A stretch of 37,025 bases of DNA from Sphingomonas sp. (GTDB taxonomy: Bacteria; Pseudomonadota; Alphaproteobacteria; Sphingomonadales; Sphingomonadaceae). The notes beneath the pieces were generated by a model. That model saw only the letters and a list, made by a program, of their open reading frames with translations, did not search any database and was not told where the DNA came from. How positions within the stretch are numbered: the stretch's first letter is position 1; each line of letters starts with the position of its first letter. Shown here piece by piece: positions 1,095 to 30,412 of this stretch. The position numbers were made by a program, and so were the translations under genes. Location: contig JAICXO010000008.1 of the NCBI GenBank assembly GCA_025980335.1, positions 1-37,025 of the forward strand. The letters run 5' to 3'.

Positions 1095-1108
1095 TGGTAG
1101 CGCTACCA
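1095..1108. promoter_or_regulatory. LacI-family operator palindrome, site 1 (aguA / GH10)
   Basis: TGGTAGCGCTACCA is a perfect 14-base palindrome with a central CG, the usual form of LacI/GalR operators. It sits 17 bases before the aguA start and 11 bases before the xylanase start, so one bound dimer could block both genes. The identical core recurs at 27075-27088. Confidence 0.8.
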
Positions 1109-1119
1109 TAGGAGGGGTG

Positions 1120-2259
1120 ATGAAGCTCACACGGCGCCAGGCGCTCGCCGGCGGAGCGGCGATGCTGGCGAGCAGTGCGCTCGCGCGCCCGGTGGCGCCG
1201 GCGTCACTTGACGCGATCGCCGGCGAGGGCGGAAGGCGCTTCGGCTCGGCAGTTGCGTGGGCACCCCCCGGACTGGACGCGGGAAGCTTCACCAACCCGC
1301 GCTACGCGGCGCTTCTCGAAGCGGAATGCGCGCTGTTGGTGCCCGAAAACCAGCTCAAATGGCAGTGGGTCCGACGCGCTCCGGACTCGTTCGACTTCCG
1401 CGCGTTCGACGCAATCGCCGATTACGCGACCGGCCGCGGGTTCAAGCTGCGCGGGCACACGCTCTTCTGGACGCCGACCAAATGGTATCCGAAATGGCTC
1501 GCCGAAATGCGCTTCGGCTCGGCGGCCGAAGCCGAACGGCTGCTAACGAATCATGTGCGGACGGTCTGCAGCCGCTACGGCGACCGGATCTATTCGTACG
1601 ACGTGGTCAACGAGGCGGTGCAACCCGAAACGGGCAAGCTCCGCGACACCAACGTCACTCGTGCGCTCGGCGGAGAGGCGCTACTCGACCTCATGTTCCA
1701 CACCGCGCGCGAGGCCGCTCCGCATGCGCAGCTCGTCTACAACGACTATATGAGCTGGGAGCGCACGCACGACGACAAAAGGCACATCAAGGGCGTGCTC
1801 AAGCTGCTCGAAGGCTTGAGGAGGCGCGGCACGCCTGTCGACGCGCTCGGCGTCCAGTCGCACATCCGTCTGCTTGAGAAGGCGCCAGTGGCGGAGATCG
1901 TTCGCCAATCCGAGAAGCCGTGGCGGCGCTTCCTCGATGAGGTGGTCGGCATGGGGTACCAGCTCGTGATCACCGAGTTCGACGTGAACGACCATGAGGC
2001 GCCGACCGCCATCCTCGCGCGCGACCGGATGGTGGCGGACTACGGCAAAGCCTACCTTGATGTCATGCTCGGATATCCGCAACTTCAGGACGTGCTGTGC
2101 TGGGGCATGTGCGACCGCTACAGCTGGCTCGACGGGTTCGACCCGCGCGCCGACGAGACGCTCAAGCGCGGCACGCCCTATGATGCGAACTTCGCGCCCA
2201 AGCCGCTGCGAACCGCGATGGCCGCGGATTTTGCGCAAGCGGGGTCGCGGCATGTTTAG
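1120..2259 (+). CDS. GH10 endo-1,4-beta-xylanase, Tat-type signal
   Basis: This retaining enzyme cuts the xylan backbone outside the cytoplasm. The 379-residue protein opens with a twin-arginine motif (TRRQAL), a hydrophobic stretch and ALA, which suggests Tat export. The GH10 landmarks follow in order: ENQLKW, RGHTLFW, the acid/base E165 in VVNEA, ALGVQSH, and the nucleophile E286 in VITEFD. I chose the ATG at 1120 rather than the GTG directly before it because AGGAGGGG at 1109-1117 gives better spacing to it; the difference is one residue. The stop overlaps the next gene's start by eight bases, so it is the first gene of a coupled operon. The small single-domain build shows no carbohydrate-binding module. 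Confidence 0.95.
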   Translation: MKLTRRQALAGGAAMLASSALARPVAPASLDAIAGEGGRRFGSAVAWAPPGLDAGSFTNPRYAALLEAECALLVPENQLKWQWVRRAPDSFDFRAFDAIADYATGRGFKLRGHTLFWTPTKWYPKWLAEMRFGSAAEAERLLTNHVRTVCSRYGDRIYSYDVVNEAVQPETGKLRDTNVTRALGGEALLDLMFHTAREAAPHAQLVYNDYMSWERTHDDKRHIKGVLKLLEGLRRRGTPVDALGVQSHIRLLEKAPVAEIVRQSEKPWRRFLDEVVGMGYQLVITEFDVNDHEAPTAILARDRMVADYGKAYLDVMLGYPQLQDVLCWGMCDRYSWLDGFDPRADETLKRGTPYDANFAPKPLRTAMAADFAQAGSRHV

Positions 2260-3922
2260 ATGGGTCCTCGCGTTCGTTTTGCTCGTTGCGGCGCCGATGA
2301 CGGTATTCGCGAAGCAGGGGCCGGCCGAGTTCGACTGGTTCGAATATAGCGGCGACGACGGACTGCCGAAGGCGACGTCCGGCGAATATGCGAACCCGAT
2401 CCTCCAAGGCTTCTACCCGGACCCGAGCATCGTCCGCGCCGGACGCGACTATTATCTCGTCAATTCGACCTTCGCCTGGTTCCCGGGCATGCCGATCTTC
2501 CATAGCCGGGACCTCGTTCACTGGACCCAGATCGGCAATGCGATCGACCGGTCGAGCCAGCTCAAGTTCGACAAGCTCAACATGTGGCAAGGGCTCTACG
2601 CGCCGGACATCAGCTGGCACGACGGCACCTTCTACATCCTCAACACCTGCGTCGGGTGCGGCGGCAATTTCGTGATCACTGCCAAGAAGCCGCACGGGCC
2701 CTGGTCCGATCCGGTGTTTTTGCCGGGGGTCGAGGGAATCGACACGTCGCTGTTCTTCGACGACGACGGCAGCGCCTGGATCGTGCACAACGGGCCGCCG
2801 CCCGAAAAGCCGCGGTACGAGGGGCATACCGCGATCTGGCTGCAGCACTTCGATGCGAAGGCGCTGAAAGCGGTCGGCAAACCGCAAGTGCTGGTCGATG
2901 CCGGAACCCATCCGGAGCGCAAGCCGATCTGGATCGAGGGCCCGCACATCTTCAAAAAAGATGGGCTTTACTATCTGATCGCCGCCGAAGGCGGCACCGA
3001 GGAGGGCCATTCGGAAGTCGTGTTCCGAAGCGACAAGGTGACGGGCCCTTATGTCGCGCTGGCGAGCAATCCGATCCTGACCCAGCGCGATCTTCCGAAG
3101 GATCGCGCGCGACCGATCACCTCGACTGGTCACGCGAAATTCGTCGAGACTCCCGAAGGCGACTGGTGGGCGGTGTTCCTCGGCGTTCGGCCGTACGATT
3201 CCGCGGGCGACTTCAACACGGGGCGCGAGACCTTCATGATGCCGGTCCGGTGGAAGGATGGATGGCCGCGGGTGACCGATCCCGGGCAGCGGGTTCCATG
3301 GCTTGCTCCCGCGCCGAAGCTGCCGAAGCAGGCGAAGCCGCCGGTGCCGCTGAACGGGGACTTCAGCTTCCGGGAGGATTTCGACGCGGCGAAGCTGCCG
3401 CTGTACTGGATGCAATTGCGCAACCGGCAAGGGCATTGGTGGCGTGTCCGCAATGGCGCCTTGCAGCTCAATGCGCGTGCTGTCGCCCTTGGCGACAATG
3501 GCAATCCCTCGCTGCTCGCCCGCCGTCAGCAACATCTGAACGCGACCGCCACGACGGAGCTGCGTTTCCACGCCGCGAGCGACGATGCCGAGGCGGGGCT
3601 CGCCGCATTTCAGAACGACCAATATTGGTACTTGATCGCTGTCGGCAGCGATCACAGCGAGCCCGTCGTGCGGGTCCGCCGATCGCTGAACGGTGCCGTG
3701 TCCACGCTCGCCGAAGCGCCGCTTCCAGCCATCTCTGCGGTGCAGCTGAGGATCAGTGCGCATGGACCGAGCTACGATTTCGGCTGGAGCGCGGACGGCA
3801 AGCACTGGCACAGCCTGGTGAAAGGCGCCGACGGGACGATCCTGAGCACGAAGAAGGCGGGCGGGTTCGTCGGTGCGGTGTTCGGCCTCTATGCGCACGA
3901 CGGAAGCGGAGGGGCGCAATGA
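2252..3922 (+). CDS. GH43 beta-xylosidase / alpha-L-arabinofuranosidase
   Basis: This inverting glycosidase releases xylose or arabinose from xylo-oligosaccharides. The ATG at 2252 lies inside the end of the xylanase gene and gives a 556-residue protein with a signal peptide (residues 1-20, ending VFA). The five-bladed GH43 domain fills roughly residues 45-350, with the base D57 in PDPSI, the pKa-modulating D164 in GIDTSLFF and the acid E229 in WIEGPHIF. From about residue 365 a concanavalin-like C-terminal domain follows (LYWMQLRN), as in GH43 xylosidases. Upstream in-frame sequence is only the alternative frame of the xylanase gene. Specificity between xyloside and arabinoside cannot be read from the sequence. 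It ends in a four-base ATGA overlap with the reductase gene. Confidence 0.92.
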   Translation: MFRWVLAFVLLVAAPMTVFAKQGPAEFDWFEYSGDDGLPKATSGEYANPILQGFYPDPSIVRAGRDYYLVNSTFAWFPGMPIFHSRDLVHWTQIGNAIDRSSQLKFDKLNMWQGLYAPDISWHDGTFYILNTCVGCGGNFVITAKKPHGPWSDPVFLPGVEGIDTSLFFDDDGSAWIVHNGPPPEKPRYEGHTAIWLQHFDAKALKAVGKPQVLVDAGTHPERKPIWIEGPHIFKKDGLYYLIAAEGGTEEGHSEVVFRSDKVTGPYVALASNPILTQRDLPKDRARPITSTGHAKFVETPEGDWWAVFLGVRPYDSAGDFNTGRETFMMPVRWKDGWPRVTDPGQRVPWLAPAPKLPKQAKPPVPLNGDFSFREDFDAAKLPLYWMQLRNRQGHWWRVRNGALQLNARAVALGDNGNPSLLARRQQHLNATATTELRFHAASDDAEAGLAAFQNDQYWYLIAVGSDHSEPVVRVRRSLNGAVSTLAEAPLPAISAVQLRISAHGPSYDFGWSADGKHWHSLVKGADGTILSTKKAGGFVGAVFGLYAHDGSGGAQ

Positions 3923-4968: not shown

Positions 4969-5861
4969 ACCGGCTGCTCGCAGCAGCGGCGCTCCTCTTG
5001 TTCGGCGGCGCGGCGCATGCGAAGCAGCCCGAAATCGCGATCACGATCGACGATCTTCCGGTGCATGCGCCTTATCCGCCCGGAGTTACCCCGCTTGAGG
5101 TCAACCGGAGAATGATTGCCGCGCTGAAGGCCGCGCATGTGCCCGCGACCGCGTTCGTCAATGGGGTGAACGCGACGGACTCCGCCACGATGCAGGCCCT
5201 ACGCGACTGGCGCGCGGCGGGGTTCGTGCTCGGCAATCACAGCTGGTCGCATCCGCATCTCAGCCAATTGACGATTCGGCAATTCGAAGAGCAGCTGACC
5301 ATGGGCGAGCCGCTGTTGTCCAAGCTCGGGAGCGGCACCGACTGGCGCTGGTTCCGCTATCCGTTTCTGGACGAGGGCAAAGACGACGAGCAGCGGATCG
5401 CCGCGCGAAAGGTGCTGGCGAAGCACGGCTATCGCATCGCGGCGGTGACCATGAGCTTTTCCGACTGGGCATTCACCCCCGCTTACGCGCGCTGCATGGG
5501 AAAGGGCGACAAGGCTGCGGTCGCCAAACTCGAACGGCTGTACCTGAAAGCCGCGCGCGAAAACATCGCCGCCAGTCGCGACACCGCGCGCAAGCTTTAC
5601 GGACGCGACATTCCCTACTTGCTGCTGATGCACGTCAGCGCGATGAGCGCGCGGATGATGCCGCAGGTGATCGGACTCTACAGGAACGCCGGTTGCCGGC
5701 TCGTCTCCTTGCCCGAGGCGGAGAGCGATGCGGCCTACGCGGGCTACACCGACCTGGGCTTGCCGCCGCCGCAGTCTCCGCAACAGCTCGCCCAAAAGAA
5801 GTATGTGCAGCTGATGCGGGCGCCCGACCATTCGGCGATTCTGAATTCGATCTGCTCCTAG
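4965..5861 (+). CDS. NodB-type polysaccharide deacetylase (CE4-like), exported
   Basis: This probably metal-dependent enzyme removes acetyl groups from a polysaccharide. The 298-residue protein has a signal peptide (residues 1-19, ending AHA). The NodB motifs are present: D29-D30 in TIDDLP, the metal ligands H92 and H96 in GNHSWSH, and RYPF at 131-134. As last gene of the xylan operon it could act on acetylxylan. It also sits next to the chitin genes, so N-acetylated sugars cannot be excluded. Its start overlaps the reductase stop by four bases, and its end overlaps the end of the convergent nagA gene by four bases. Confidence 0.88.
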   Translation: MNRLLAAAALLLFGGAAHAKQPEIAITIDDLPVHAPYPPGVTPLEVNRRMIAALKAAHVPATAFVNGVNATDSATMQALRDWRAAGFVLGNHSWSHPHLSQLTIRQFEEQLTMGEPLLSKLGSGTDWRWFRYPFLDEGKDDEQRIAARKVLAKHGYRIAAVTMSFSDWAFTPAYARCMGKGDKAAVAKLERLYLKAARENIAASRDTARKLYGRDIPYLLLMHVSAMSARMMPQVIGLYRNAGCRLVSLPEAESDAAYAGYTDLGLPPPQSPQQLAQKKYVQLMRAPDHSAILNSICS

Positions 5862-6991
5862 GCGGAGCCGACTCCGTCGATCCAGCTTCCGGCGACCCGC
5901 AACTCGGCGTCTAGCAGCACGAGGTTCGCGCGATAGCCCGGGGCGATCCGGCCGAGTTCGTGATCGACACCGAGGAATGCGGCCGGGTTGGCGCTCGCCA
6001 TTGCGACGGCACCGGCGAGATCGACCGCGAGCATCGACACCGCATTGCGAACCGCGCTCGCCATGTCGAGGTCGGCCCCCGCGAGCGTTCCGTTGGCGTT
6101 GACGCATTTCCCGTCGGCGGCCGTGATCTGCTGACCGCCGAGCATGAATGCCTTGCGTCCGCCGACGCTCGGCATCGCGTCGCTGACCAGCATGAACCGG
6201 CGGAGCGGAGCCGCGCGGAGCGCGACCGCCAGGACTCGCGGATCGACGTGATGTCCGTCGACGATGATCCCGCACCAGCTCTTATCGTCGTACAGGGCCG
6301 CTCCGACGACGCCAGGCTCGCGCGCATTCATCTGCGACATGGCGTTGAACAGATGCGTGAAACCGCGAAGCCCGCTCTTCAGCGCTTCGGCGACCCGGTC
6401 GGCCGTCGCATTGGTGTGACCGGCGCAGACGATCACGCCGGCGTTCGTCAGCTGACGGATTGCCGCCGCAGGCACCTTTTCCGGCGCCAAGGTGGCGACC
6501 GTCTTGCCGCCGGTCGGCTGCGAGAGGAGCGCGATTTCGAAGTCGCTGATCGGCCGCAGCTTCGCGGCGTCGTGAATGCCCTTCTTCTCGAGATTGAGGA
6601 ACGGTCCTTCGATGTGCACCCCAAGGACGCCCGGCACGCCGGCGGCAATTGCCGAGCGCGTGGCGTCCATTGCCGCCGCGATTTTCTCCGCGTCGTCGCT
6701 GATCAGCGTCGGCAGGAAGCCCGTCGTGCCGAAGCGTCGGTGCGCGGCGCCGATCGCCGCGATCGTCTCGGCGCTCGGATCGTCGTTGAACAGCCGGTCG
6801 CCGCCGCCATTGACCTGCACGTCGATGAACCCCGGCACGAGAGTCTGTCCGCGAAGGTCGAAGCGGGGGACGTCGGCGAGTTCGCCCTCGCGGACTAGGG
6901 CCGCGATCCGTCCATCCTCGATCACCACCGCGGCGTCGGTCACGAAGCCGCCGTCCAGCAGCACCCGTCCGTTGACCAGCGCTTCGGCCAT
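5858..6991 (-). CDS. nagA: N-acetylglucosamine-6-phosphate deacetylase
   Basis: NagA turns GlcNAc-6-phosphate into glucosamine-6-phosphate and acetate in the cytoplasm. The 377-residue amidohydrolase has the family landmarks in order: FIDVQVNGGG, the metal-binding glutamate in VHIEGPF, histidines in CAGHTNA and FTHLFNAM, and the catalytic aspartate in LVSDAMPS. No signal peptide is seen. The ATG overlaps the stop of the upstream deaminase gene (TGATG), so the two are translationally coupled and supply consecutive steps. It converges on the deacetylase gene of the xylan operon with a four-base overlap and no visible terminator between them. Confidence 0.96.
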   Translation of the reverse strand: MAEALVNGRVLLDGGFVTDAAVVIEDGRIAALVREGELADVPRFDLRGQTLVPGFIDVQVNGGGDRLFNDDPSAETIAAIGAAHRRFGTTGFLPTLISDDAEKIAAAMDATRSAIAAGVPGVLGVHIEGPFLNLEKKGIHDAAKLRPISDFEIALLSQPTGGKTVATLAPEKVPAAAIRQLTNAGVIVCAGHTNATADRVAEALKSGLRGFTHLFNAMSQMNAREPGVVGAALYDDKSWCGIIVDGHHVDPRVLAVALRAAPLRRFMLVSDAMPSVGGRKAFMLGGQQITAADGKCVNANGTLAGADLDMASAVRNAVSMLAVDLAGAVAMASANPAAFLGVDHELGRIAPGYRANLVLLDAELRVAGSWIDGVGSA

Positions 6992-8037
6992 CAGTGCGTC
7001 TCCGTCACCTTGGCGAGGTGCGGCGGCCGGTCGGGATCGAGACCGCGCGCGACGGCAAGCGCATTCGCGGCGCGGTAGAACGACTGGATCTGCAAAATCG
7101 GTTCGAGCAGCGGGGGCGATAGAATGCTCGGCAGCGTGGTCGCGCCGCGCGCGTCCGAGCCGGCGAGCAAGACGCGCGCACCGCGCTCGGCCAACGCTCC
7201 CGCAGTCTCCTCGACATTGCGGCCGGTCTCGTCAGATTGACTGAACATCAGCGCCGGGAATCCCTCTCGGACGAGCGCCATCGGACCGTGGCGAAGCTCG
7301 GCGGCACTGAACGCCTCCGCGTGCAGCTGCGAGGTCTCCTTAAGCTTGAGCGCCGCTTCCTGCGCGGCTGCATAGCCGACGCCCCGGCCAAGGACGTAGA
7401 GGTCGCTCGCGGCGGTGAGCTCGCCGACGAGCGCCGACCAGTCGAGCGCCCACGCTTGCCTCAGCAGCGCGGGAAGAGCGCGCAGATCGCTTCGGAGTCC
7501 GTCATCGTCGCTCCACTCGGCAACGATCCGCGCGATCGCCGCCAGAGACGCGATGAACGATTTGGTCGCGGCAACGCTGCGCTCCTCGCCGGCGGCGAGC
7601 CCGAACGATCTGTCCGCCATCTCCGCCAGCGGAGAGTCGGTATCGTTGACCAGCGCCAGCACCCACGCGCCTGCCTCCCTGAAGCTCGACACGGTCGCGA
7701 GCAGGTCGGGGCTTCGGCCCGATTGCGAAATGGCGATGCAGACGGCCTCGTCCGCCCGCAGCGGAGACGCATAGACGGACGATACCGACGGCGCCGCCGA
7801 GGCGACGGGCACGCCGATGCGCGTCTCGATCGCATATTTGGCGTAGGTCGCGGCATGGTCGGAGCTTCCGCGGGCGCAGGTGATCACGACGCGTGGCGAG
7901 CGGCCGCGGAGCTCCGCGCCGATCCGGTCGAGCTCCGCGGCAGCACCTTCCTGGCGGGCGACGGCGTCGCCCGCTTCGGCCGCCTCGCGGAACATGCTGG
8001 TGGCGCGCGCGGCGGCCGGTTCGCTTTCGTGGGTCAT
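6991..8037 (-). CDS. nagB-II: SIS-domain glucosamine-6-phosphate deaminase (NagB-II type)
   Basis: The protein is predicted to convert glucosamine-6-phosphate to fructose-6-phosphate and ammonia, the step after NagA. It has 348 residues with two SIS sugar-isomerase domains, each about 150 residues. The first shows CARGSSDHAA and ISQSGRSPD; the second shows LGRGVGYAAAQEAALKLKE. It lacks the glutaminase domain of GlmS, which marks it as the deaminase replacement seen in proteobacterial nag loci rather than the classic NagB fold. It is first in the minus-strand pair with nagA and diverges from the PTS genes. An AgaS-like isomerase role is the main alternative, but the partner genes favour GlcNAc. 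Confidence 0.9.
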   Translation of the reverse strand: MTHESEPAAARATSMFREAAEAGDAVARQEGAAAELDRIGAELRGRSPRVVITCARGSSDHAATYAKYAIETRIGVPVASAAPSVSSVYASPLRADEAVCIAISQSGRSPDLLATVSSFREAGAWVLALVNDTDSPLAEMADRSFGLAAGEERSVAATKSFIASLAAIARIVAEWSDDDGLRSDLRALPALLRQAWALDWSALVGELTAASDLYVLGRGVGYAAAQEAALKLKETSQLHAEAFSAAELRHGPMALVREGFPALMFSQSDETGRNVEETAGALAERGARVLLAGSDARGATTLPSILSPPLLEPILQIQSFYRAANALAVARGLDPDRPPHLAKVTETH

Positions 8038-8119
8038 TGCTATTGACGCACGCTAACGATGTGCCGGATGCTCGCACAATGACAAAATTGCGAGGGTGCT
8101 CCGCCGTGAGCTCCAGCCG

Positions 8120-14889: not shown

Positions 14890-14908
14890 CAGCGGCTAGG
14901 CTGCGGCC

Positions 14909-19536: not shown

Positions 19537-20628
19537 ATGGCAAAGCCGAGCCGGCGCAGACGTGGAGTGACGACAATCGAGGACGTCGCGCGCGCGGCGG
19601 GCGTCTCGGCGATGACCGTCTCTCGCGTGATCAATCACGGCAAGAACGTGCGCGATTCGACGCGAGCCTCGGTGCTAGAAGCGATCGAGCAGCTAAACTA
19701 TTCGCCGAACACCGCGGCTCGAAGCCTGGCGGCGGGGCAGGCGACGCACATCGGCCTGCTTTATGCCAACCCGAGTGCCGGCTATCTCGCGCAGTTCCTG
19801 ATCGGTGCGCTCCACGCGGCGCGAAGCGCCGGGGTTCACCTCGTGATAGAGTCGTGCGAATCCGAGGATGCGGACGAGCAGGCGGAGGTCACGCGTCGGT
19901 TCGCGACGAGCGATGTCGAAGGCGTGATCCTCCCGCCGCCGCTTTCGGAATCGCAGCCTATCATGGCCGAGCTCGATTCGATGGGCATCCCGGTGGTGAC
20001 GGTGGCAATGGGCGCGCCACAGGCCGACAGCCTCAACGTGCGGATCGACGACCGCGCGGCGGCGAACGAGATGACTCGCTATCTGCTCGACCTCGGGCAT
20101 CGCAACATCGGCTTCATCAAGGGCCACCCGAACCACGTCGCCAGCCGCGATCGTCACCAGGGCTTCTGCGACGCGCTGACCGAAGCGGGAATGGATGCCG
20201 ATCGCGCGCCGGTGGAGCAGGGCTATTTCAGCTACCGATCCGGGCTCATCGCCGGAGAGCGCTTGCTCGGGCGTGCCGATCGGCCGACGGCGATCTTCGC
20301 GAGCAACGACGACATGGCCGCGGCCACAATCAGCATTGCGCATCGCATGGGCCTCAACGTGCCCGACGATGTCAGCATCGTCGGCTTCGACGATACCGCA
20401 CTTGCGACCAGCGTTTGGCCCGAGCTGACGACGGTCAAGCAACCGATTTCCTCGATGGCAGAAGCCGCGCTCGAGCTGCTGATTGCGGACCTTCGGACAC
20501 ATTCGCCGGGTGCTCCGCGCAAGTTCACCGAGCGGGTGCTGAGCCATGCAATGATGATCCGCGAATCTTCGGATTCGCCGCCCGGCGCACGGAAGACGAA
20601 GAAGACGAAAACGGTGCACAGAGCTTAG
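19537..20628 (+). CDS. LacI/GalR-family transcriptional regulator, probable xylan/xylose repressor
   Basis: The 363-residue protein has a LacI helix-turn-helix at about 12-33 (TTIEDVARAAGVSAMTVSRV), with A25 and M26 at the base-reading positions. The hinge-helix motif RSLAAG contains L64, the leucine that in LacI/PurR wedges into a central CG step. A periplasmic-binding-like effector domain fills about 70-340 (FASNDDMAAA, VSIVGFDDT). I chose the ATG at 19537, just before the HTH, over upstream in-frame codons that would run back over the operator region. The five palindromes with a central GCGC core in this window surround this gene, so it is the best candidate to bind them. The effector (xylose, a xylo-oligosaccharide or xylonate) cannot be told. 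Confidence 0.93.
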   Translation: MAKPSRRRRGVTTIEDVARAAGVSAMTVSRVINHGKNVRDSTRASVLEAIEQLNYSPNTAARSLAAGQATHIGLLYANPSAGYLAQFLIGALHAARSAGVHLVIESCESEDADEQAEVTRRFATSDVEGVILPPPLSESQPIMAELDSMGIPVVTVAMGAPQADSLNVRIDDRAAANEMTRYLLDLGHRNIGFIKGHPNHVASRDRHQGFCDALTEAGMDADRAPVEQGYFSYRSGLIAGERLLGRADRPTAIFASNDDMAAATISIAHRMGLNVPDDVSIVGFDDTALATSVWPELTTVKQPISSMAEAALELLIADLRTHSPGAPRKFTERVLSHAMMIRESSDSPPGARKTKKTKTVHRA

Positions 20629-20651: not shown

Positions 20652-20665
20652 TGTTACCGCTAACA
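20652..20665. promoter_or_regulatory. LacI-family operator-like site 3 (sugar symporter)
   Basis: TGTTACCGCTAACA is a near-palindrome with one central mismatch, and fits the same consensus (TGnTAGCGCTAnCA) except for a C in place of G at position 6. It lies 23 bases before the symporter start. Confidence 0.55.
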
Positions 20666-22261: not shown

Positions 22262-24040
22262 ATGACCCGCACGCCCGCCCGCCCGTTCCGCTCGCGCGAG
22301 TGGTTCGACGCTCCCGGGCGGCCGGACATGGCCGCGCTCTACCTCGAGCGGTACATGAACGACGCGTTCACGCGTGAGGAGCTGCGCTCGGGAAAGCCGA
22401 TCATCGGCATCTCGCAATCCGGCTCGGACCTCGTCCCGTGCAACCGAATCCACATCAAGCTGATGGAGCGGATCAAGGCCGGCATCCGCGACGCGGGCGG
22501 AATTCCGATGGAATTTCCGATGCACCCGATCTTCGAGAATTGCCGCCGGCCGACCGCGGCGCTCGACCGCAACCTCGCGTATCTCGGCCTCGTCGAGATC
22601 CTCAACGGCTATCCGATCGACGCCGTGGTGCTGACCACCGGCTGTGACAAGACCACGCCGGCCTCGATCATGGCCGCGGCGACGGTCGACATTCCCGCCA
22701 TCACGCTCAACGGCGGGCCGATGCTCGACGGCTGGCACGAGGGCGAGTTGGTCGGGTCGGGCACCGTCATCTGGCGCTCGCGGCGGCTGCTCGGGGCCGA
22801 CGAGATCGACGAGGAAGAGTTCATCCGCCGGGCGAGCGATTCCGCGCCGTCACTTGGGCATTGCAACACGATGGGCACTGCCTCGACGATGAACTCGGTC
22901 AGCGAGGCGCTCGGCATGTCGCTGCCTGGGCAGGCGATGATCCCGGCGCCATACCGCGAGCGGGCGCACATGGCGTACGAAACCGGCAAGCGGATCGTCG
23001 ACATGGCGTATGAGGACCTGCGCCCATCGAAGATTCTGACGCGCGAGGCGCTGCTGAACGCGATTGTCGTCAACGCGGCGATCGGCGGCTCGACCAACGC
23101 CCAGCCGCACATCGTCGCGATTGCGCGCCACGCAGGCGTGGAGATCACCCCCAAGGACTGGATAGAGTACGGCTACGACGTGCCGCTGCTCGTCAACATG
23201 CAGCCGGCGGGCAAATATCTGAGCGAACGGTTCCACCGCGCGGGTGGGGTGCCGGCGGTGATGTCGGAGCTGCTGCGCGCGGGCAGGCTGGACGGATCGG
23301 CGCTGACCTGCACAGGTCGCACCCAGGCGGAAAACCTCGAGGGACGCGAAGCAACCGATCGCGACGTGATCTTCCCTTATTCCGCGCCGCTCAAGGAAGC
23401 GGCGGGCTTTCTGGTGCTCAGCGGAAACCTGTTCGACTTCGCGATCATGAAGACCAGCGTGATCGGCGACGAGTTCCGCGCACGCTATCTTTCCCGACCG
23501 GGGCACGAAGGCGTGTTCGAGGGCCGCGCAATCGTGTTCGACGGCTCGAGCGATTACCACCACCGGATCAACGATCCGTCGCTCGACATCGGCGAGAATT
23601 GCATCCTCGTGATCCGCGGCGCGGGCGTGCTCGGCTGGCCCGGCTCCGCCGAGGTTGTCAACATGCAGCCGCCCGACGCGCTTCTCCACCGCGGCATCCA
23701 GAGCCTGCCGACGATCGGCGACGGACGACAGTCGGGCACCTCCGACAGCCCGTCGATCCTCAATGCATCGCCCGAAAGCGCCGACGGCGGCGGCCTCGCA
23801 TGGCTGCGCACCGGCGATACAATCCGCATCGACCTCAACGCGCGCACCTGCGACGCGCTCGTCAGCGACGAGGAGATTGCGCGGCGGAAGGCCGAACCCG
23901 CGCCTCCCGTGCCGGAGAGCAACACGCCGTGGGAAGAGCTGTTTCGCGAAAAGACCGGTCAGCTCTCGACCGGCGGAGTGCTCGAGTTCGCGGTCAAATA
24001 TCGCGGCACGTCAAACAAGGTGCCGCGGCACAATCACTGA
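22262..24040 (+). CDS. xylD: D-xylonate dehydratase (IlvD/Edd family)
   Basis: The enzyme removes water from D-xylonate to give 2-keto-3-deoxy-D-xylonate in the Weimberg pathway. The 592-residue protein runs parallel to Caulobacter XylD from RPFRSREWFD to the last residues PRHNH. The iron-sulfur cluster cysteines are C60 in LVPCNRIH, C128 in TTGCDKTTP and C201 in GHCNTMG. I chose the ATG at 22262 because the tract GGGGAGGAG lies five bases before it; that tract is part of a palindromic repeat. It faces xylC across a region with a second repeat. L-arabonate dehydratase activity is possible in this family, but the XylB-type partner favours xylonate. Confidence 0.95.
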   Translation: MTRTPARPFRSREWFDAPGRPDMAALYLERYMNDAFTREELRSGKPIIGISQSGSDLVPCNRIHIKLMERIKAGIRDAGGIPMEFPMHPIFENCRRPTAALDRNLAYLGLVEILNGYPIDAVVLTTGCDKTTPASIMAAATVDIPAITLNGGPMLDGWHEGELVGSGTVIWRSRRLLGADEIDEEEFIRRASDSAPSLGHCNTMGTASTMNSVSEALGMSLPGQAMIPAPYRERAHMAYETGKRIVDMAYEDLRPSKILTREALLNAIVVNAAIGGSTNAQPHIVAIARHAGVEITPKDWIEYGYDVPLLVNMQPAGKYLSERFHRAGGVPAVMSELLRAGRLDGSALTCTGRTQAENLEGREATDRDVIFPYSAPLKEAAGFLVLSGNLFDFAIMKTSVIGDEFRARYLSRPGHEGVFEGRAIVFDGSSDYHHRINDPSLDIGENCILVIRGAGVLGWPGSAEVVNMQPPDALLHRGIQSLPTIGDGRQSGTSDSPSILNASPESADGGGLAWLRTGDTIRIDLNARTCDALVSDEEIARRKAEPAPPVPESNTPWEELFREKTGQLSTGGVLEFAVKYRGTSNKVPRHNH

Positions 24041-24242
24041 GCTCCGGTTGCTGCGAGGAGCGGAGCGACGAAGCAATCCAGCACGACGGTCGCCCGTCGC
24101 CCGGCTCGGCCTCGCCGCTCAGCATGACGGGCCTGTCGCGCTGAATCAGCGGATAACCGCGGAATTGCGGATCAATTGCCGGCGCGGCGGAAGCGGCCGA
24201 CGCAAGTAACGCAGAAAGGATCAGTAGCGCACGAGCGGGCAC
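23994..24242 (-). pseudogene. possible remnant of an exported protein gene downstream of xylC
   Basis: From a GTG at 24242, which overlaps the last 22 bases of xylC, the frame reads a convincing signal peptide (ALLILSALLASAASAAPA) and about 20 more residues. It then runs into a dispersed repeat at about 24131 and ends antisense to the xylD 3' end after 82 codons. I do not recognise the protein. The picture fits the beginning of a fourth gene of the xylX-xylB-xylC operon cut off by repeat insertion or deletion. No good ribosome-binding site is seen, so a chance ORF is possible. Confidence 0.3.
24047..24131. repeat. dispersed intergenic repeat (GAAGCAATCCAG type)
   Basis: The stretch contains GCGAGGAGCGGAGCGACGAA and GAAGCAATCCAG at one end and CTCAGCATGACGG at the other. 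These phrases recur between genes in many alphaproteobacterial genomes, to my knowledge. It occupies most of the gap between the ends of xylD and xylC. The other copies needed to prove it a repeat are not in this window. Confidence 0.5.
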
Positions 24243-25096
24243 GCAACGCCGACGACGCCGGCAGCGAACGCGAACAAATCGCCGATCTGCGGCTGCTTCG
24301 CGATCTGCTCGGGCTTCAGCAATTGTCGCGCGCTGGTCGCGAAAGCGGTGCGGAGGCCACTGCCGCCGAGCGCGAGCTTGGTCACGTTTGCGACCGGAAA
24401 GCGAACTTCTTCGATCAACTCGCCCGAGACTGAATAGCGCCGCGCGCCCCAGCCTCCGTAGAGGCCGATCCAGACGGCGCCGGTGCTGTCGACCGTCGGG
24501 CCGTCTGGGAAACCCGCGCCTTGTTCGATCGTCACGAACGGGCGGCGCTCGCCGAGCCCGCCGTCAGCGCCGATTTCCGCCTTCTCGATCCGCCGCCGGA
24601 ACGTGTCCACCAGATAGAGGGTCTTCCCGTCGGGCGAAATTGCCGGGCCATTGGTGACGACCATTCCGCCGACCCCGGTCGGCCGCACCTCTCCATTCGC
24701 GAAGCAATAGAAAGCGCCGGTCTTCTCCTTCTCCTTGTTGTCCATCGTCCCGAACCACAGGCGCCCTTCGGAGTCGACCACCCCGTCGTTGAGGCGATTG
24801 TCGGGCTTGTCCGCCTCCACTTTCGCGATCAGGTCGAACGCACCGGTCCGCTCGTCGAAATGAAACAAGCCGGACTGGAGCCCGGCAACGAACCCGCCGC
24901 GCTCCGCCGGGAACACGAACCCGACCTGCTCGGGCGCCTTCCAGCTGCCGCGCTCGTCGATTGCCGGATCGTAGCGATGGACCAGCTGCTTCTTGATGTC
25001 GACGAACCACAAGGCGGAATCGCGCTCGACCCAGACCGGCCCTTCGCCGAGTTCGGCCTCGAGCTTCCACACCGCCTTCGGTTCGCTTGCGCTCAT
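24221..25096 (-). CDS. xylC: xylonolactonase, SMP-30/gluconolactonase family
   Basis: The enzyme opens the sugar lactone made by XylB to give the free acid for XylD. It has 291 residues, no signal peptide and the six-bladed propeller fold of the SMP-30 family. The metal ligands are likely E18 in LGEGPVW, N149 in VTNGPAIS and D198 in FPDGPTVD. It begins one base after the xylB stop, so it belongs to the xylX-xylB-xylC operon. The match to Caulobacter XylC is clear in motif order and length (about 290). Arabinolactone could also be hydrolysed; family members are often broad. Confidence 0.92.
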   Translation of the reverse strand: MSASEPKAVWKLEAELGEGPVWVERDSALWFVDIKKQLVHRYDPAIDERGSWKAPEQVGFVFPAERGGFVAGLQSGLFHFDERTGAFDLIAKVEADKPDNRLNDGVVDSEGRLWFGTMDNKEKEKTGAFYCFANGEVRPTGVGGMVVTNGPAISPDGKTLYLVDTFRRRIEKAEIGADGGLGERRPFVTIEQGAGFPDGPTVDSTGAVWIGLYGGWGARRYSVSGELIEEVRFPVANVTKLALGGSGLRTAFATSARQLLKPEQIAKQPQIGDLFAFAAGVVGVACPLVRY

Positions 25097-25097: not shown

Positions 25098-25844
25098 TCA
25101 TCGCCACCCTGCGTCGACGAAATATTCGTGTCCGGTGATCAGCCGCGCATCGGCCGAAGCGAGGAACATCGTCAAGGCCGCGACGTCCTCGGGCACCAGG
25201 CGCGCCTTGAGGCATTGCGCCGCGACAATCTCCGCCTCGCCCTCGGGCGTGTACCATTGCATCTGCCGCGGAGTCTTCACGTTGCCGGGCACGACGCAGC
25301 AGACGCGGATATTGTCCTTGCCGAGGTCGCGGGCGAGCGCCCGCGTCAGCCCTTCGATCGCGGCCTTGCAGGTCTGGTATAGAACGAGGTCGGGAAGGGC
25401 GAGGTGCCAGCTGATCGACCCCAGGTTGATGACGGCCCCGCCGCCGTTCGAGCGCATGCTCTTCGCCGCCGCCTGCGCGCAGAAGAACTGGTGCTTCAGG
25501 TTCACGTTCAGCCGGTCGTCCCAGTAGTCCTCGGTCACGTCGGCGATGCTGTGGCGGTCGTCGTTCGCCGCATTGTTGACCAGCACGTCGATGGTGCCGA
25601 GATCGCCGATTGCCGCTGTCGTGGCGCCGATATCGCGCAGATCGACGCGGACGAACCGGGCGCCGGTGCGGCCCGCGAGCGCGTGCGACTCTTCGTCGCA
25701 AATGTCGAAGAAGGCGACGTCCGAACCCTGGCGAACGAAGCCCTCGACGATGCCCGCGCCGATCCCCGAACCGCCGCCGGTGACGAGCACCGTCTTCCCG
25801 CGCAGGCTCGGATAGATTGCGCGCCCCTCCTCAACCTTGCTCAA
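25098..25844 (-). CDS. xylB: D-xylose 1-dehydrogenase, SDR family
   Basis: The enzyme oxidises D-xylose with NAD+ to D-xylonolactone. The 248-residue SDR has the nucleotide motif TGGGSGIG (22-29) and the catalytic S143, Y156 and K160 (GSISW, YQTCK). Strings such as NNAANDDRH, VVPGNVKT, QWYTPEGEAEIVAAQCLK and GHEYFVDAGWR match Caulobacter XylB closely. The only standard in-frame start close to the conserved part is a TTG at 25844 with a mediocre GGGGG tract before it. A much better tract, AGGAGGGG (25824-25831), lies inside the reading frame in front of an ATC codon, so the true start is uncertain by nine codons. It is second or third in the minus-strand xylX operon. Confidence 0.95.
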   Translation of the reverse strand: MSKVEEGRAIYPSLRGKTVLVTGGGSGIGAGIVEGFVRQGSDVAFFDICDEESHALAGRTGARFVRVDLRDIGATTAAIGDLGTIDVLVNNAANDDRHSIADVTEDYWDDRLNVNLKHQFFCAQAAAKSMRSNGGGAVINLGSISWHLALPDLVLYQTCKAAIEGLTRALARDLGKDNIRVCCVVPGNVKTPRQMQWYTPEGEAEIVAAQCLKARLVPEDVAALTMFLASADARLITGHEYFVDAGWR

Positions 25845-25848
25845 TAGT

Positions 25849-25911
25849 TCAGCCCCCGATGGTCGCGGCTTTGACTTTGCCGTCGGTCGAATGTGTGTCG
25901 GTTTCGGTCAC
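25849..25911 (-). CDS. 20-codon small ORF between xylX and xylB
   Basis: A GTG at 25911 overlaps the xylX stop by four bases (GTGA) and has GAAGGAG about eight bases before it, a better ribosome-binding site than xylX or xylB has. It reads MTETDTHSTDGKVKAATIGG and stops five bases before the xylB TTG. It is hydrophilic, with no transmembrane stretch, and I recognise no relative. It may be a coupling or leader ORF that carries ribosomes from xylX to xylB, a true small protein, or the former N-terminus of xylB separated by a frameshift. Confidence 0.4.
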   Translation of the reverse strand: MTETDTHSTDGKVKAATIGG

Positions 25912-27044
25912 GTTCTGGCTCCTTCGAGCAACCCGCGAGCCGAGAGATTCCGCATCAGCGCGCGCGTGCCGAACTTCCACGCCGGCGCGTCGCGCGATGT
26001 CGAAACGACGTTCGCGAGCGTGCCGAGCCTCGGCGTCGAAATCCGCACCTCGTCGCCGATCTTGTGCGTGAAGCCGCGGCCAGGCTCGTCGCGGTCTTCG
26101 GTCGGTGCGAACAAGGTGCCGAGGAACAGCACGAAACCATCCGGATAATGGTGCTCGCTCACCGTCTGGGACACGAGATCCACGGGGTCGCGGCTGATCT
26201 CATTCATCAGGCTTCGCCCGGTGAGCCGGAATCCGTCGGCGCCGGCGATCTGCAGCTCGACCACGGCCGAGCGAATGTCGTCGAGGGTGAATCCGTCGTC
26301 GAACAGGCGCACGAACGGCCCAATCGCGCATGAGGCATTATTGTCCTTGGCCTTGCTCAGCAGCAGCGCGCTGCGTCCTTCGAAATCGCGCAGGTTTACG
26401 TCGTTGCCGAGCGTCGCGCCGCGGATCTTGCCCTCGCTGCTGACCACCAGCACGACTTCGGGCTCCGGATTGTTCCAACTCGAATCGGAGCGCACGCCGA
26501 CGTCCGCCCCCCAGCCGACGCTCGCAAGGGGCGCCGTCTTGGTGAAAATCTCCGCGTCCGGCCCAATCGCCACCTCGAGATATTGCGACCAGAGGCCGTC
26601 GTCGATCAGCGCTTCCTTGAGGCGTTCGGCGGGTTCGGTACCCGGCACGACCGAACGGATTGCGCCACCTATCCGCTGCTCTAGCTTGTCGCGAATTTCC
26701 GCGGCACGGGTGAAGTCACCGCGCGCGCGCTCCTCGATGACCCGCTCGATCGCCGAGATTGCGAAGGTCACCCCCGCGGCCTTCACTGCCTGAAGGTCCA
26801 CCGGCGCCAGGAATCGCTCGCGCGGAAACAGCGCAAGTTCGTCGACCCCGAACAGCCGCTCGCCGGAGACGCTCGCCGGATTGGTCATCTCCATCAGGTC
26901 GGCAATCGTCGGCGCGATGCGCGATATGTCTTCGACCGCGCCTTCCCGGATCAGGACCGAGGTCGGGCCATCGTCGAGCAGCAGCCGGCCTGCGAGCGTC
27001 GCGTGCGCAGCGTCGTCGGGGAGCATCGCGGCCGTGAATTGCAT
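25908..27044 (-). CDS. xylX: 2-keto-3-deoxy-D-xylonate dehydratase, FAH family
   Basis: The enzyme dehydrates 2-keto-3-deoxyxylonate to 2-oxoglutarate semialdehyde, the fourth Weimberg step. The protein has 378 residues with a C-terminal fumarylacetoacetate-hydrolase fold (about 150-378). Strings such as MLPDDAAHATLAGR near the start, SDSSWNNPEPEVVLV, GNDVNLRDFEGRSAL and LFLGTLFAPTEDRD are like Caulobacter XylX. I chose the ATG at 27044; longer in-frame reading would pass through the operator at 27073-27090. No strong ribosome-binding site precedes it. It is first in the operon with the small ORF, xylB and xylC, and diverges from the second GH3 gene. Confidence 0.92.
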   Translation of the reverse strand: MQFTAAMLPDDAAHATLAGRLLLDDGPTSVLIREGAVEDISRIAPTIADLMEMTNPASVSGERLFGVDELALFPRERFLAPVDLQAVKAAGVTFAISAIERVIEERARGDFTRAAEIRDKLEQRIGGAIRSVVPGTEPAERLKEALIDDGLWSQYLEVAIGPDAEIFTKTAPLASVGWGADVGVRSDSSWNNPEPEVVLVVSSEGKIRGATLGNDVNLRDFEGRSALLLSKAKDNNASCAIGPFVRLFDDGFTLDDIRSAVVELQIAGADGFRLTGRSLMNEISRDPVDLVSQTVSEHHYPDGFVLFLGTLFAPTEDRDEPGRGFTHKIGDEVRISTPRLGTLANVVSTSRDAPAWKFGTRALMRNLSARGLLEGART

Positions 27045-27072: not shown

Positions 27073-27090
27073 ATTGGTAGCGCTACCAAT
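27073..27090. promoter_or_regulatory. LacI-family operator palindrome, site 4 (xylX / GH3)
   Basis: ATTGGTAGCGCTACCAAT is a perfect 18-base palindrome, the longest of the five sites. It starts 28 bases upstream of the xylX start and ends 73 bases before the GH3 start, so it can control both directions. Confidence 0.85.
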
Positions 27091-27163: not shown

Positions 27164-29422
27164 ATGCGACGAATTCACCTGTTGCTTGCATTGGCGTTGA
27201 GCTTGGCTGCCGTTGGCGCAACCGCGCACGCTGGTCCGAGCCGGCCTTGGCTGAATTCCGCGCTGTCGCCCGATCAACGAGCGCAGCTTGCGGTCGGGCA
27301 GATGACGCAGGCTGAAAAACTGACGTTGGTGCTCGGCTATTTCGCAAGCGACTGGCAGGGCAAGAAGCCTCCGAAAGGCGGCCGGTACGGTTCTGCCGGC
27401 TATGTGCCGGGCATTCCGCGCCTCGGCATACCGCCGCAGTGGCAAACCGATGCCGGCATCGGCGTCGCGACTCAGGGCGGCGCCACCGTCAAACGCGAGC
27501 GCACCTCGCTGCCCTCGGGCATTGCGACCGCCGCCACCTGGAACCCGCAGATCGCGTTCCAAGGCGGCCGGATGATCGGCTCGGAAGCGCGCGATTCCGG
27601 TTTCAACGTGATGCTCGCCGGCGGGGTCGATCTCGCGCGCGATCCGCGCAACGGGCGCAACTTCGAATATGCCGGCGAGGACCCGCTGCTGGCGGGGACG
27701 ATCGTCGGTTCGGAGATCGCCGGGATCCAGTCGAACCACATCATTTCGACTACGAAGCATTATGCGCTCAACGACCTCGAGACCGGGCGAAAGGGGCACG
27801 ACGCGCGCATCGATCCCGCCGCAGCGCGCATGTCGGACCTGCTCGCCTTTCAGTTTGCGATCGAACGCGGCGATCCAGGTTCGGTCATGTGCTCCTACAA
27901 CCGGGTGAACGGCAACTTCGCGTGCGAGAACGACTGGCTGTTGAATCAGGTGCTGAAGGGTGATTTCGGCTTCCGCGGCTATGTGATGAGCGACTGGGGT
28001 GCGGTCCACAGCACGGTCAAGGCGGCGATGAGCGGGCTCGACCAGCAGTCGGGCTGGCCGTTCGACGACAAGCCGTATTTCGGCTCATTGCTGAAGCAGG
28101 CGGTCGCTTCCGGCAAGGTCCCCGAGGCGCGGCTCGACGACATGGCGCGCCGAGTGCTGCGCTCCATGTTCGCGCATGGGCTGGTCGACGATCCGGTGCC
28201 GGGGAGCGCGGCGATCGACTATGCCGCGGATGAAGCGGTCACCCAGACCGACGCGGAGCAGGGCATCGTCCTCTTGAAGAACGACGGCAATCTGCTTCCG
28301 CTGACCGGGGCCGCGCGGCGGATCGTCGTCATCGGCGGCCACGCCGACAAGGGCGTGCTCGCCGGCAGTGGCTCTTCGCTGGTCTATCCCCGCGGCGGCA
28401 ACGCGGTTCCGGGACTCGAGCCCACGGGGTGGCCGGGGCCCGTGATGTACTTCCCCGATTCGCCGGTGAAGGAATTGGAGCGGCTCGCACCGAACGCGAC
28501 CATCAGCTTCGTCGATGGCGCCGATCCCGCCGCCGCGGCTGCCGCGGCAAGGAACGCCGACGTGGCGATCGTCTTCGCGACCCAATGGTCGAGCGAGTCG
28601 ATCGACGTGCCGATGAAGCTCGACGGCAATCAGGATGCGCTGATCGAGGCCGTCGCCACCGCCAATCCGCGGACCGGCGTCGTGCTCGAAACCAACGCCG
28701 GTGTGGCGATGCCGTGGGCGCCACGCGTGCCGGCAATCGTCGAGGCCTGGTATCCGGGGACCGACGGCGGGGCGGCGATCGCCAACATTCTGACCGGCCG
28801 CGTCAACCCGTCGGGGCACCTGCCGGTCACATTCTATGCGTCCGAGGCGCAGCTTCCGCGGCCGGTGCGCCCGGGCAGCAATTCCGAGATGGACCAGTTC
28901 ACGCTTCCGTACACGGAAGGCGCCGCAGTCGGATACAAGTGGGCGGACAGGAACAACCTTCAGCCGCTGTTCCCGTTCGGCCACGGACTTTCGTACACCC
29001 GCTACGATTATGGGCAGATCAGCGCGGCGGCAGCGCCGGGCGGCAGCGTCCGCGTGCAATTCACGCTGCGCAATTCGGGCAGCCGGGCCGGCATGGCGGT
29101 CGGGCAGGTCTATGCTTCGCCGGCCAACGGCGGATGGCAGGCGCCGCGACGCCTCGTCGGCTTCTCGAAGGTCGAGCTCGCCCCGGGTGCAGCGCAGACC
29201 GTCGCGGTCGATGTCGATCCGCGGCTCCTCGCCAATTTCGACGAGGCCGCGCACGCTTGGCGGATCGCTCCGGGCGCTTACATCTTCAGCCTCGGCGCGT
29301 CCTCGCGCGACCTGCGCGCCACCACGACCGTGACGGTTCCCGCGCTCAGCCTTCCCGCAAACTGGCGGCCGGGACAGGAAGCCGCTGCCCCAGCGCCGCA
29401 GTCCGGCGAGCGAGGGCGATGA
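27164..29422 (+). CDS. GH3 beta-glucosidase-type enzyme, exported
   Basis: This retaining exo-beta-glycosidase has 752 residues and a signal peptide of about 23 residues (ending AHA). The barrel shows DPRNGRNFEYAGEDP, TTKHYALND and the nucleophile D277 in VMSDWGAVH. The second domain (LLKNDGNLLPL, AWYPGTDGG) and a fibronectin-like end (about 650-740) are present. It differs from the other GH3 protein of this window in every motif, so it is not a recent copy. The natural substrate may be cello-oligosaccharides, given the GH5 gene nearby. An operator-type palindrome lies 73 bases upstream. Its last 77 bases overlap the end of the convergent oxidoreductase gene. Confidence 0.92.
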   Translation: MRRIHLLLALALSLAAVGATAHAGPSRPWLNSALSPDQRAQLAVGQMTQAEKLTLVLGYFASDWQGKKPPKGGRYGSAGYVPGIPRLGIPPQWQTDAGIGVATQGGATVKRERTSLPSGIATAATWNPQIAFQGGRMIGSEARDSGFNVMLAGGVDLARDPRNGRNFEYAGEDPLLAGTIVGSEIAGIQSNHIISTTKHYALNDLETGRKGHDARIDPAAARMSDLLAFQFAIERGDPGSVMCSYNRVNGNFACENDWLLNQVLKGDFGFRGYVMSDWGAVHSTVKAAMSGLDQQSGWPFDDKPYFGSLLKQAVASGKVPEARLDDMARRVLRSMFAHGLVDDPVPGSAAIDYAADEAVTQTDAEQGIVLLKNDGNLLPLTGAARRIVVIGGHADKGVLAGSGSSLVYPRGGNAVPGLEPTGWPGPVMYFPDSPVKELERLAPNATISFVDGADPAAAAAAARNADVAIVFATQWSSESIDVPMKLDGNQDALIEAVATANPRTGVVLETNAGVAMPWAPRVPAIVEAWYPGTDGGAAIANILTGRVNPSGHLPVTFYASEAQLPRPVRPGSNSEMDQFTLPYTEGAAVGYKWADRNNLQPLFPFGHGLSYTRYDYGQISAAAAPGGSVRVQFTLRNSGSRAGMAVGQVYASPANGGWQAPRRLVGFSKVELAPGAAQTVAVDVDPRLLANFDEAAHAWRIAPGAYIFSLGASSRDLRATTTVTVPALSLPANWRPGQEAAAPAPQSGERGR

Positions 29423-30353
29423 GCGCAAGTCCGTCGCGCGCGTCGTGGGGGTCGACCGGCGTGGGTCCGCCCTCGTCAATCGCGGCGACCACGCGCTTGT
29501 AGAAATCGAGGTAGCGTCCGCGTTCACTGGGCACGTGCTCGATGCTGCCGTCGGGCAGCGTGAGCGTGCCACGCCGCTCCTCGATTCCGAAGCGCGAATC
29601 GCGCGGGTCCATGCCGGCTTTGAGCTGCTCTTCCTGCGGATCGATGCCGTGCTTGACGAACGATCCGCCGCTGCCGTGCACGGCAAAGCGCGGCCGCGGC
29701 TCGCTTACCAGGCTCGACGCGCGCAGGCAGACGCGCATCGCTCCATATTCGAACGTGAGGTCGAAATAATCGTCGACGCTCGCTCCGAAGCGCTGCGCGA
29801 GGATGTCGGCAGAGACGGCTTGCGGCGTGCCGAACAATTGCAGCATCTCGTCGATCATGTGCGGGCCGAGGTCGGCCAGCAGCCCGGCCCCGAGTCCCGG
29901 CTGTTCGCGCCAGCGCTGCCTCACCTCGGGCCGGAAACGGTCCCAATGCGCTTCGACCAGGAACGGCTCGCCGATCCTCGGAAGCACCTCGCGCAAGGTC
30001 AGGAAATCGGCTGCCCAGCGACGGTTGTGGAAGACTGTCAGCATCCGCTCGGCGTCGCGCGCGAGCGCAAGCAGCGCGTCGGCTTGCTCGACCGCGACGG
30101 TGAACGGCTTGTCGACGACGACATGCTTGCCGTGCTCGAGCGCCGCCTTCGCGAGCGCGAAATGGCTGTCGTTGGGGGAGGCGACCACAACCAGATCGGC
30201 GCGCGCGAACAACTCTTCCGCGCTGCCGACCCGAAGCGGGTGCTCGCGCGACGTTAGCACCGCAGTGAGCTCCAGCCCGCCGGACGCGCGGATCAGCGGC
30301 TCGTGGAACACCGCCCCCGCGAGGCCGTAGCCGATCAGCCCAACCCGGATCAC
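29346..30353 (-). CDS. Gfo/Idh/MocA-family oxidoreductase
   Basis: This 335-residue NAD(P)-dependent sugar or polyol dehydrogenase should be cytoplasmic. The Rossmann motif GLIGYGLAG stands at 5-13, SPNDSHF and the catalytic-lysine motif VVVDKPF follow in the first domain, and the C-terminal beta-sheet domain shows DLGPHMIDEML. It resembles the E. coli YdgJ/YhhX group; the substrate is unknown. The start is a GTG with GGAGAG seven bases upstream. It diverges from the GH5 gene around a LacI-type palindrome, so it probably belongs to the same regulon. A 77-base tail-to-tail overlap with the GH3 gene is unusual and confirmed in both frames by conserved protein sequence on each side up to the tails. 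Confidence 0.88.
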   Translation of the reverse strand: MIRVGLIGYGLAGAVFHEPLIRASGGLELTAVLTSREHPLRVGSAEELFARADLVVVASPNDSHFALAKAALEHGKHVVVDKPFTVAVEQADALLALARDAERMLTVFHNRRWAADFLTLREVLPRIGEPFLVEAHWDRFRPEVRQRWREQPGLGAGLLADLGPHMIDEMLQLFGTPQAVSADILAQRFGASVDDYFDLTFEYGAMRVCLRASSLVSEPRPRFAVHGSGGSFVKHGIDPQEEQLKAGMDPRDSRFGIEERRGTLTLPDGSIEHVPSERGRYLDFYKRVVAAIDEGGPTPVDPHDARDGLALIALARRTAALGQRLPVPAASLREG

Positions 30354-30381
30354 CGCGTCTCTCCCCGCACCCGCTGCAACC

Positions 30382-30412
30382 TTGACGCGGTGCTAAATGA
30401 TAGCGCTATCAT
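30382..30412 (+). promoter_or_regulatory. possible promoter for the GH5 gene, overlapping operator 5
   Basis: TTGACG at 30382-30387 and TATCAT at 30407-30412 could be -35 and -10 boxes with a long 19-base spacer. The -10 would lie in the right half of the palindromic operator, a classic arrangement for repression. Spacing is poor, so confidence is low. Confidence 0.3.
30397..30412. promoter_or_regulatory. LacI-family operator palindrome, site 5 (oxidoreductase / GH5)
   Basis: ATGATAGCGCTATCAT is a perfect 16-base palindrome sharing the TAGCGCTA core with sites 1, 2 and 4. It lies 35 bases before the GH5 start and 43 before the oxidoreductase start. Confidence 0.8.

Follow-up and report, generated by a model that had tools for sequence, protein, structure and literature searches.

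The window analysed here, a stretch of 37,025 nucleotides of a Sphingomonas genome, carries genes for xylan hydrolysis, sugar uptake and xylose catabolism on both sides of a gene for a XylR-like regulator of the LacI family (Table 1). The GH67 gene could also start earlier, at the ATG at 1077. For the sugar porter, the XylE model scores best, but under its own cut-off. Genes for the xylose dehydrogenase, lactonase, xylonate dehydratase and keto-deoxy-xylonate dehydratase of the Weimberg pathway lie together in the window; xylB was called over an equivalog cut-off, and xylC, xylD and xylX by family only, with predicted specificity.

The preliminary description had assigned the Weimberg pathway to this locus, which holds for the genes of the first four enzymes and not for that of the last, alpha-ketoglutarate semialdehyde dehydrogenase, of which no close relative was found in the 83%-complete genome (best match 34% identity). 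A distant enzyme could serve this step. Members of a close aldehyde dehydrogenase family (79% identity or more) were present in 8 of 12 genomes searched, counting G012, the source of the query, and G000, G004, G007 and G030 had none; the best NCBIfam models for the query are 2,5-dioxovalerate/ketoglutaric semialdehyde dehydrogenases, with scores under the cut-offs. The sister genomes G033 and G012 carry the aldehyde dehydrogenase gene together with a further gene (a SASA-type carbohydrate esterase in G033), and at the corresponding places (24040-24221 and 25845-25908) the window has short leftovers, one matching the esterase start over 46 aa (59% identity; E 1e-15, the search being tiny) and one aligning over 12 aa with the start of the dehydrogenase, a match that is doubtful at E 0.13. 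The leftovers reflect either two real gene losses or assembly faults.

Table 1. Genes and operator sites of the xylan and xylose locus (positions in the window).
Feature	Position	Strand	Basis or location
GH67 alpha-glucuronidase, N-terminal part	1-1038	-	Pfam GH67N, GH67M; cut by contig end
Operator (xyl-box) TGGTAGCGCTACCA	1095-1108	.	GH67 (alpha-glucuronidase)/GH10 (xylanase) gap; exact match
GH10 endo-xylanase	1120-2259	+	PF00331
GH43 glycosidase with beta-xylosidase C-terminal domain	2252-3922	+	PF04616, PF17851
GH3 glycosidase	17046-19424	-	PF00933, PF01915
Operator TGGTAGCGCTAACG	19447-19460	.	GH3/lacI gap; 1 mismatch
LacI-family regulator, XylR-like, 363 aa	19537-20628	+	Pfam LacI (PF00356) and Peripla_BP_3 (PF13377) over cut-off
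Operator TGTTACCGCTAACA	20652-20665	.	lacI/sugar porter gap; 1 mismatch
Sugar porter of MFS, XylE-like	20689-22128	+	PF00083; TIGR00879 over cut-off
IlvD/EDD-family dehydratase, predicted xylonate dehydratase XylD	22262-24040	+	PF00920; dihydroxy-acid dehydratase subfamily over cut-off
SMP-30/gluconolactonase family, predicted xylonolactonase XylC	24221-25096	-	PF08450
D-xylose 1-dehydrogenase XylB	25098-25844	-	NCBIfam equivalog NF053674, 411 bits vs cut-off 400
FAH-superfamily, predicted keto-deoxy-xylonate dehydratase XylX	25908-27044	-	PF01557 over cut-off; no NCBIfam match
Operator (xyl-box) TGGTAGCGCTACCA	27075-27088	.	xylX/GH3 gap; exact match
GH3 glycosidase	27164-29422	+	PF00933, PF01915
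GFO/IDH/MocA oxidoreductase	29346-30353	-	PF01408, PF02894
Operator (xyl-box) TGATAGCGCTATCA	30398-30411	.	oxidoreductase/GH5 gap; exact match
GH5 glycosidase	30448-31464	+	PF00150

Operator sites in the window and elsewhere in its genome

Five sites had been reported at the positions of Table 1 as sharing the pattern TGnTAGCGCTAnCA. The positions were correct, and a pattern search with up to two mismatches returned exactly these five in the window; the shared pattern applies in full to the sites at 1095, 27075 and 30398, and those at 19447 and 20652 each deviate from it by one mismatch. All five are intergenic, in the gaps before the genes named earlier, whose identities were confirmed by profiles. 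Dinucleotide shuffles of the window gave a mean of 0.53 matches at the same tolerance, with 4 as the largest number, and 0 of 100 reached five. The xyl-box TGGTAGCGCTAACA of Xanthomonas, described with the LacI-type repressor XylR in PMC10380989 and PMC7748154, fits the pattern exactly, as do three sites of the window, with the other two one mismatch away. Inside the xylan locus lies an N-acetylglucosamine/chitin gene set (5858-17045; NagA-like amidohydrolase, SIS protein, PTS EIIA-HPr-EI and EIICB, GH20, GH18 and HGSNAT-like proteins), across which no xyl-box was found within two mismatches.

Counterparts of the sites recur in related genomes. Exact sites corresponding to 1095 stand at the GH67/GH10 junction in G004, G007, G008, G010, G015 and G020, and next to either GH67 or GH10 in G009, G012, G033 and G035. 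An exact site like that at 27075 directly precedes xylX in all but one of the 11 site-bearing genomes (10, the window's own included); in the remaining one, G007, an exact site precedes an aldehyde dehydrogenase gene that stands ahead of xylX. The 14-mer at 30398 is identical at the oxidoreductase/GH5 junction in G033 and G004. At the GH3/lacI place of 19447, one-mismatch sites are present in G033 and G012, and exact sites lie upstream of lacI in G004, G008, G009, G010, G015, G020 and G035. The 14-mer at 20652 also occurs in G033, G012 and, on the other strand, in the lacI/porter gap of G007; this gap contains other one-mismatch variants in G004, G008 and G010, and no site was found in it in G009, G015, G020 and G035. 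Since lacI is flanked on either side by sites within one mismatch in the sisters G033 and G012, those at 19447 and 20652 were accepted. Sites within one mismatch adjoin lacI in 11 of 12 genomes with a regulator ortholog, which points to autoregulation of lacI, predicted here to act through the operator at 19447.

Of the five exact sites in the genome assembly (2.37 Mb, 83% complete), three lie in the window and the other two on contig C147. This contig ends with the same 141 bases with which the window begins, and the GH67 gene is divided between the facing contig ends, with its C-terminal part on C147, so the two contigs are taken to be neighbours; in joined coordinates all five exact sites fall within about 59 kb. 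One exact site of C147 precedes a TonB-dependent receptor gene followed by three tryptophan-halogenase-family genes, the other a small ORF followed by cupin and GH29 genes, and a one-mismatch site on this contig stands between GH35-like and GH27 genes. The earlier proposal of a regulon spanning hydrolases, uptake and catabolism is supported, and the predicted extent of this regulon is wider than the window.

Beyond the five exact sites, 12 one-mismatch sites were detected in the genome, at least five of which have counterparts beside the same genes of related genomes (the two in the window, C147:25742, C147:28379 and C39:35967). Allowing one mismatch, the motif gave 17 matches vs 32 for a control consisting of the motif read backwards; exact matches numbered 5 vs 3. 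Because the backwards control is the commoner of the two at one mismatch, loose matches carry no weight alone and the loose genome-wide scan was rejected as evidence. The argument rests on exact matches, location, conservation and co-occurrence.

Distribution of sites and regulator among relatives

Regulator orthologs (58% identity or more; the next best same-genus LacI protein has 46%, and the ortholog of G010 is in two pieces) were found in 12 of 37 same-genus genomes, that is, in the window's own and in 11 of 36 relatives. Exact sites total 52 and are distributed over 11 of these 12 genomes (G000, 5; G004, 7; G007, 3; G008, 3; G009, 5; G010, 6; G012, 7; G015, 4; G020, 4; G033, 5; G035, 3), with 0 in the remaining one, G030, and 0 in the 25 genomes without ortholog, yet 20 of these 25 carry other LacI relatives. 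The backwards control did not show such a split (10 matches in the 11 site-bearing genomes, 16 in the other 26). The gene xylX is present in the very same 11 of 37 genomes that hold exact sites. Hence the motif, with 52 exact sites in 11 genomes and 0 in 26, is not equally common elsewhere. Nor did another LacI gene track it better: the 25 ortholog-free genomes hold no exact site, and apart from the protein at 19537-20628 no LacI HTH was found in the window's own assembly, from which a second such gene could be missing because it is 83% complete.

By gene calling, none of the 52 exact sites falls within a gene, and most adjoin xylan or xylose genes. Neighbours within 450 bp comprise GH3 (11), GH10 (10), xylX (10), GH67 (8), lacI (6), TonB receptor (5) and other assigned genes (12), and 19 were unassigned by the reference set. 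On a tree of the lpd gene from 35 of the 37 same-genus genomes (a gene tree, not a species tree; G028, with no lpd hit, and the partial G027 were left out), the presence of regulator and sites changes at least seven times. In seven independent pairs drawn on this tree, the two went in the same direction in 6.8 on average (6 or 7) and never in the opposite one (sign test, p 0.016-0.031, median p 0.016). Thus, co-occurrence, conservation and location support the initial idea of a LacI-type operator family that links xylan breakdown, xylose uptake and catabolism.

The exception, G030, encodes an intact, 80%-identical regulator with an identical recognition helix (C1:112504-113586), and neither an exact site nor xylX was found in its genome. 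A changed specificity was rejected for this case, the recognition helix being identical and the lacI region containing no near site; the regulator of G030 was probably left behind after loss of targets and sites. In other genera of the order, 6 of 24 genomes have one exact site each, and xylX was detected in 2 of 14 other-genus genomes searched, G048 (with one exact site) and G039 (a xylX relative, with no exact site).

Predicted mode of control and alternative readings

The protein encoded at 19537-20628 has the domain make-up of XylR-type regulators, a LacI-type HTH with a periplasmic-binding-protein-like sensor domain. Its recognition dipeptide is AM, and the hinge leucine described earlier, L64, was confirmed and is shared by all 10 rows of an alignment. 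The sites, their conservation, their co-occurrence with the regulator and, where TTGAC is present, the spacing to it are observed; binding, promoter position, repression and inducer are inferred. Very probably, the protein is a XylR-type repressor with TGnTAGCGCTAnCA as its operator, and xylan breakdown, uptake and xylose use are under its joint control. In the proposed mechanism, the repressor would occupy, without inducer, operators that overlap the -10/start region of its target promoters, those of xylan hydrolases, the outer-membrane TonB receptor, the xylose porter of the inner membrane, xylX-B-C and the repressor gene itself. On binding of xylose, or of a close xylan product, to the periplasmic-binding-protein-like domain, the repressor would be released, whereupon degradation, two-step uptake and oxidative xylose catabolism would be induced together. 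By analogy, the inducer is probably xylose.

The same regulator and operators could respond naturally to another compound, such as a xylo-oligosaccharide, xylonate or a glucuronylated fragment, which we consider possible and the less likely reading. Among the predicted targets are the TonB receptor and debranching enzymes with oligosaccharides as substrates, and the regulator belongs to the AM group, the Caulobacteraceae and Lysobacteraceae rows being in the separate PM group; against this, PMC10380989 reports that xylose releases or inactivates XylR in Xanthomonas and Caulobacter. The two groups were compared in the best 80 of 416 confirmed homolog loci in named genomes (L138 and L165 being identical copies of G012 and G008, respectively). 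An exact site was found in 31 of these 80 loci and a site scoring 18 or more in 57, and the DNA examined of the other 23, some of it short, had no site with such a score. The dipeptide reads AM or SM in 29 of the 80, mostly from sphingomonads, with some Azospirillaceae and Rhodospirillaceae and a Massilia, and PM or LM in 51, from Caulobacteraceae, Lysobacteraceae, Steroidobacteraceae, Sphingobium, other Sphingomonas and more. A motif-free count of CG-centred palindromes in the gaps near these best 80 loci put the core TAGCGCTA first in both groups, with counts of 21 (runner-up 6) and 19 (runner-up 12), and separate operators for AM and PM regulators were rejected, the core being the same in both.

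In a 74-row tree that includes 43 of the 80 named loci, the AM and PM groups form one 55-row clade (SH-aLRT 99) and the window protein lies in its AM part (SH-aLRT 91 for 26 of its rows); the AM label requires four changes on this tree, one of them from the row of G058, whose HTH actually reads IK. This quick tree, built with no bootstrap and with the experimentally studied XylR proteins absent, groups the window regulator with Caulobacteraceae and Lysobacteraceae homologs.

Some LacI-family proteins activate, and some of the sites lie >200 bp from the called start. PckR, moreover, is predicted to be a dual regulator in PMC4052901. An activator or dual regulator in place of a simple repressor is nevertheless improbable, for where TTGAC is present the operator stands 16 or 24-27 bp from it, across the presumed -10/start region, and a protein bound there would be expected to block. 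This box is present in 15 of 103 full-length flanks of the 52 exact sites and absent from 88, and its distance to the operator edge never departs from 16 or 24-27 bp, with seven cases of 27 bp and four of 16 bp; 500 shuffles gave a mean of 1.4 and a maximum of 7, in a set in which flanks of orthologous sites from related genomes are not independent. The main settings are 11 bp apart, about one helical turn, and within the window the spacing is seen for GH10, xylX and GH5. Given the usual 17-bp spacer from TTGAC, the -10 element would come to lie at the operator edge or inside it, and this geometry fits steric repression.

That the motif is bound by a different regulator, either a LacI protein from the missing part of the 83%-complete genome or a member of another family, is still less probable. 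G059, from another genus, does encode a LacI protein of 42-46% identity with the recognition dipeptide MM and an exact site beside its gene; the absence of exact sites from the 25 ortholog-free same-genus genomes, though 20 of them hold other LacI relatives, and the sites that adjoin the present gene in 11 of 12 ortholog genomes speak against it. Chance or base composition as the origin of the palindromes has a negligible probability in view of the window shuffles and of the confinement of 52 exact sites, all intergenic, to 11 genomes, even though one-mismatch matches in the own genome are no commoner than those of the control pattern.

Further candidate targets and known xyl-box systems

In G007 (L066:3960-7979), an exact xyl-box precedes a GH43 gene that has xylulokinase and xylose isomerase genes behind it, so both xylose routes of this genome may be under a single operator family. 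The lpd gene, encoding the E3 component of 2-oxoglutarate dehydrogenase, is attractive as a target because the Weimberg pathway ends in 2-oxoglutarate. An identical exact xyl-box lies between lpd and a divergent glucokinase-like gene in G004 (L086:6149) and G010 (L088:6324), which are not sisters on the lpd tree; G007 and G015 have the glucokinase-like gene near lpd and no site, and no lpd site was found in the window's genome. As a general target lpd was rejected, the site being upstream of it in 2 of 12 genomes and shared with the glucokinase-like gene, hence ambiguous.

A protein of about 600 aa with a signal peptide recognized by eye (L083:7314-9110, L019:7995-9812, L220 and L221) gave no Pfam or NCBIfam match. 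It occurs in 4 of 61 genomes searched, all four of which encode the regulator, and in 4 of 4 a xyl-box lies within about 35 bp upstream of its start (one exact, three with one mismatch). Tentatively, it may represent an undescribed secreted family with a new glycosidase- or esterase-like activity on xylan, a suggestion we put at somewhat under even chances. Small domainless proteins also stand beside xyl-boxes, at L016:16784-17176 (130 aa) and L085:2365-2745 (126 aa), the former recurring with its site in G033 and G012.

PMC10380989 and PMC7748154 depict the Xanthomonas XylR regulon as similar to the window in its LacI-type repressor and in its xylan degradation and xylose genes as targets; the route in Xanthomonas is that of xylose isomerase, whereas the window has oxidative, Weimberg-type catabolic genes. 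Xylose-induced TonB receptors of Xanthomonas, comparable with the TonB receptor predicted as a target here, appear in PMC1790865, together with a palindrome of 20 bp that stands upstream of the xylose regulon in Caulobacter and also before Xanthomonas xylose genes and two TonB receptor genes; the letters of this palindrome are not given there, and it is presumably the same motif as the xyl-box. Caulobacter crescentus is alike in that XylR acts at a xyl-box and is released by xylose (PMC10380989) and in its xylXABCD Weimberg operon (PMC6475665).

Altogether, the regulon make-up corresponds to that of XylR systems, with a TonB receptor, xylan hydrolases and xylose catabolism among the predicted targets; the recognition dipeptide differs, being AM in the window regulator and PM in the Lysobacteraceae homologs found. 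In the window the regulator, porter, hydrolases and catabolic genes share one locus, unlike in C. crescentus, where xylR is located apart from xylX. The LacI-family regulators GluR, PckR and GapR (Ravcheev 2014), as portrayed in PMC4052901, likewise control carbon metabolism in alpha-proteobacteria, but their targets belong to central carbon metabolism, unlike those in the window, and the words XylR, xylan and Sphingomonad- are absent from the main text of that paper. A literature search, with subscription papers and regulon databases outside it, found no report of a xyl-box regulon in sphingomonads.

The operator, the regulator type and the regulon breadth are already known; what is new is the sphingomonad instance with Weimberg genes. 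The xyl-box rule is thereby extended to sphingomonads with Weimberg-type xylose genes, for which the operator matrix is ready. The xyl-box also nominates genes for xylan use, namely those of the domainless protein of about 600 aa, the cupin and the tryptophan-halogenase-family proteins, and if the suggested activity of the first is true, this enzyme family would have become visible only through the xyl-box regulon.
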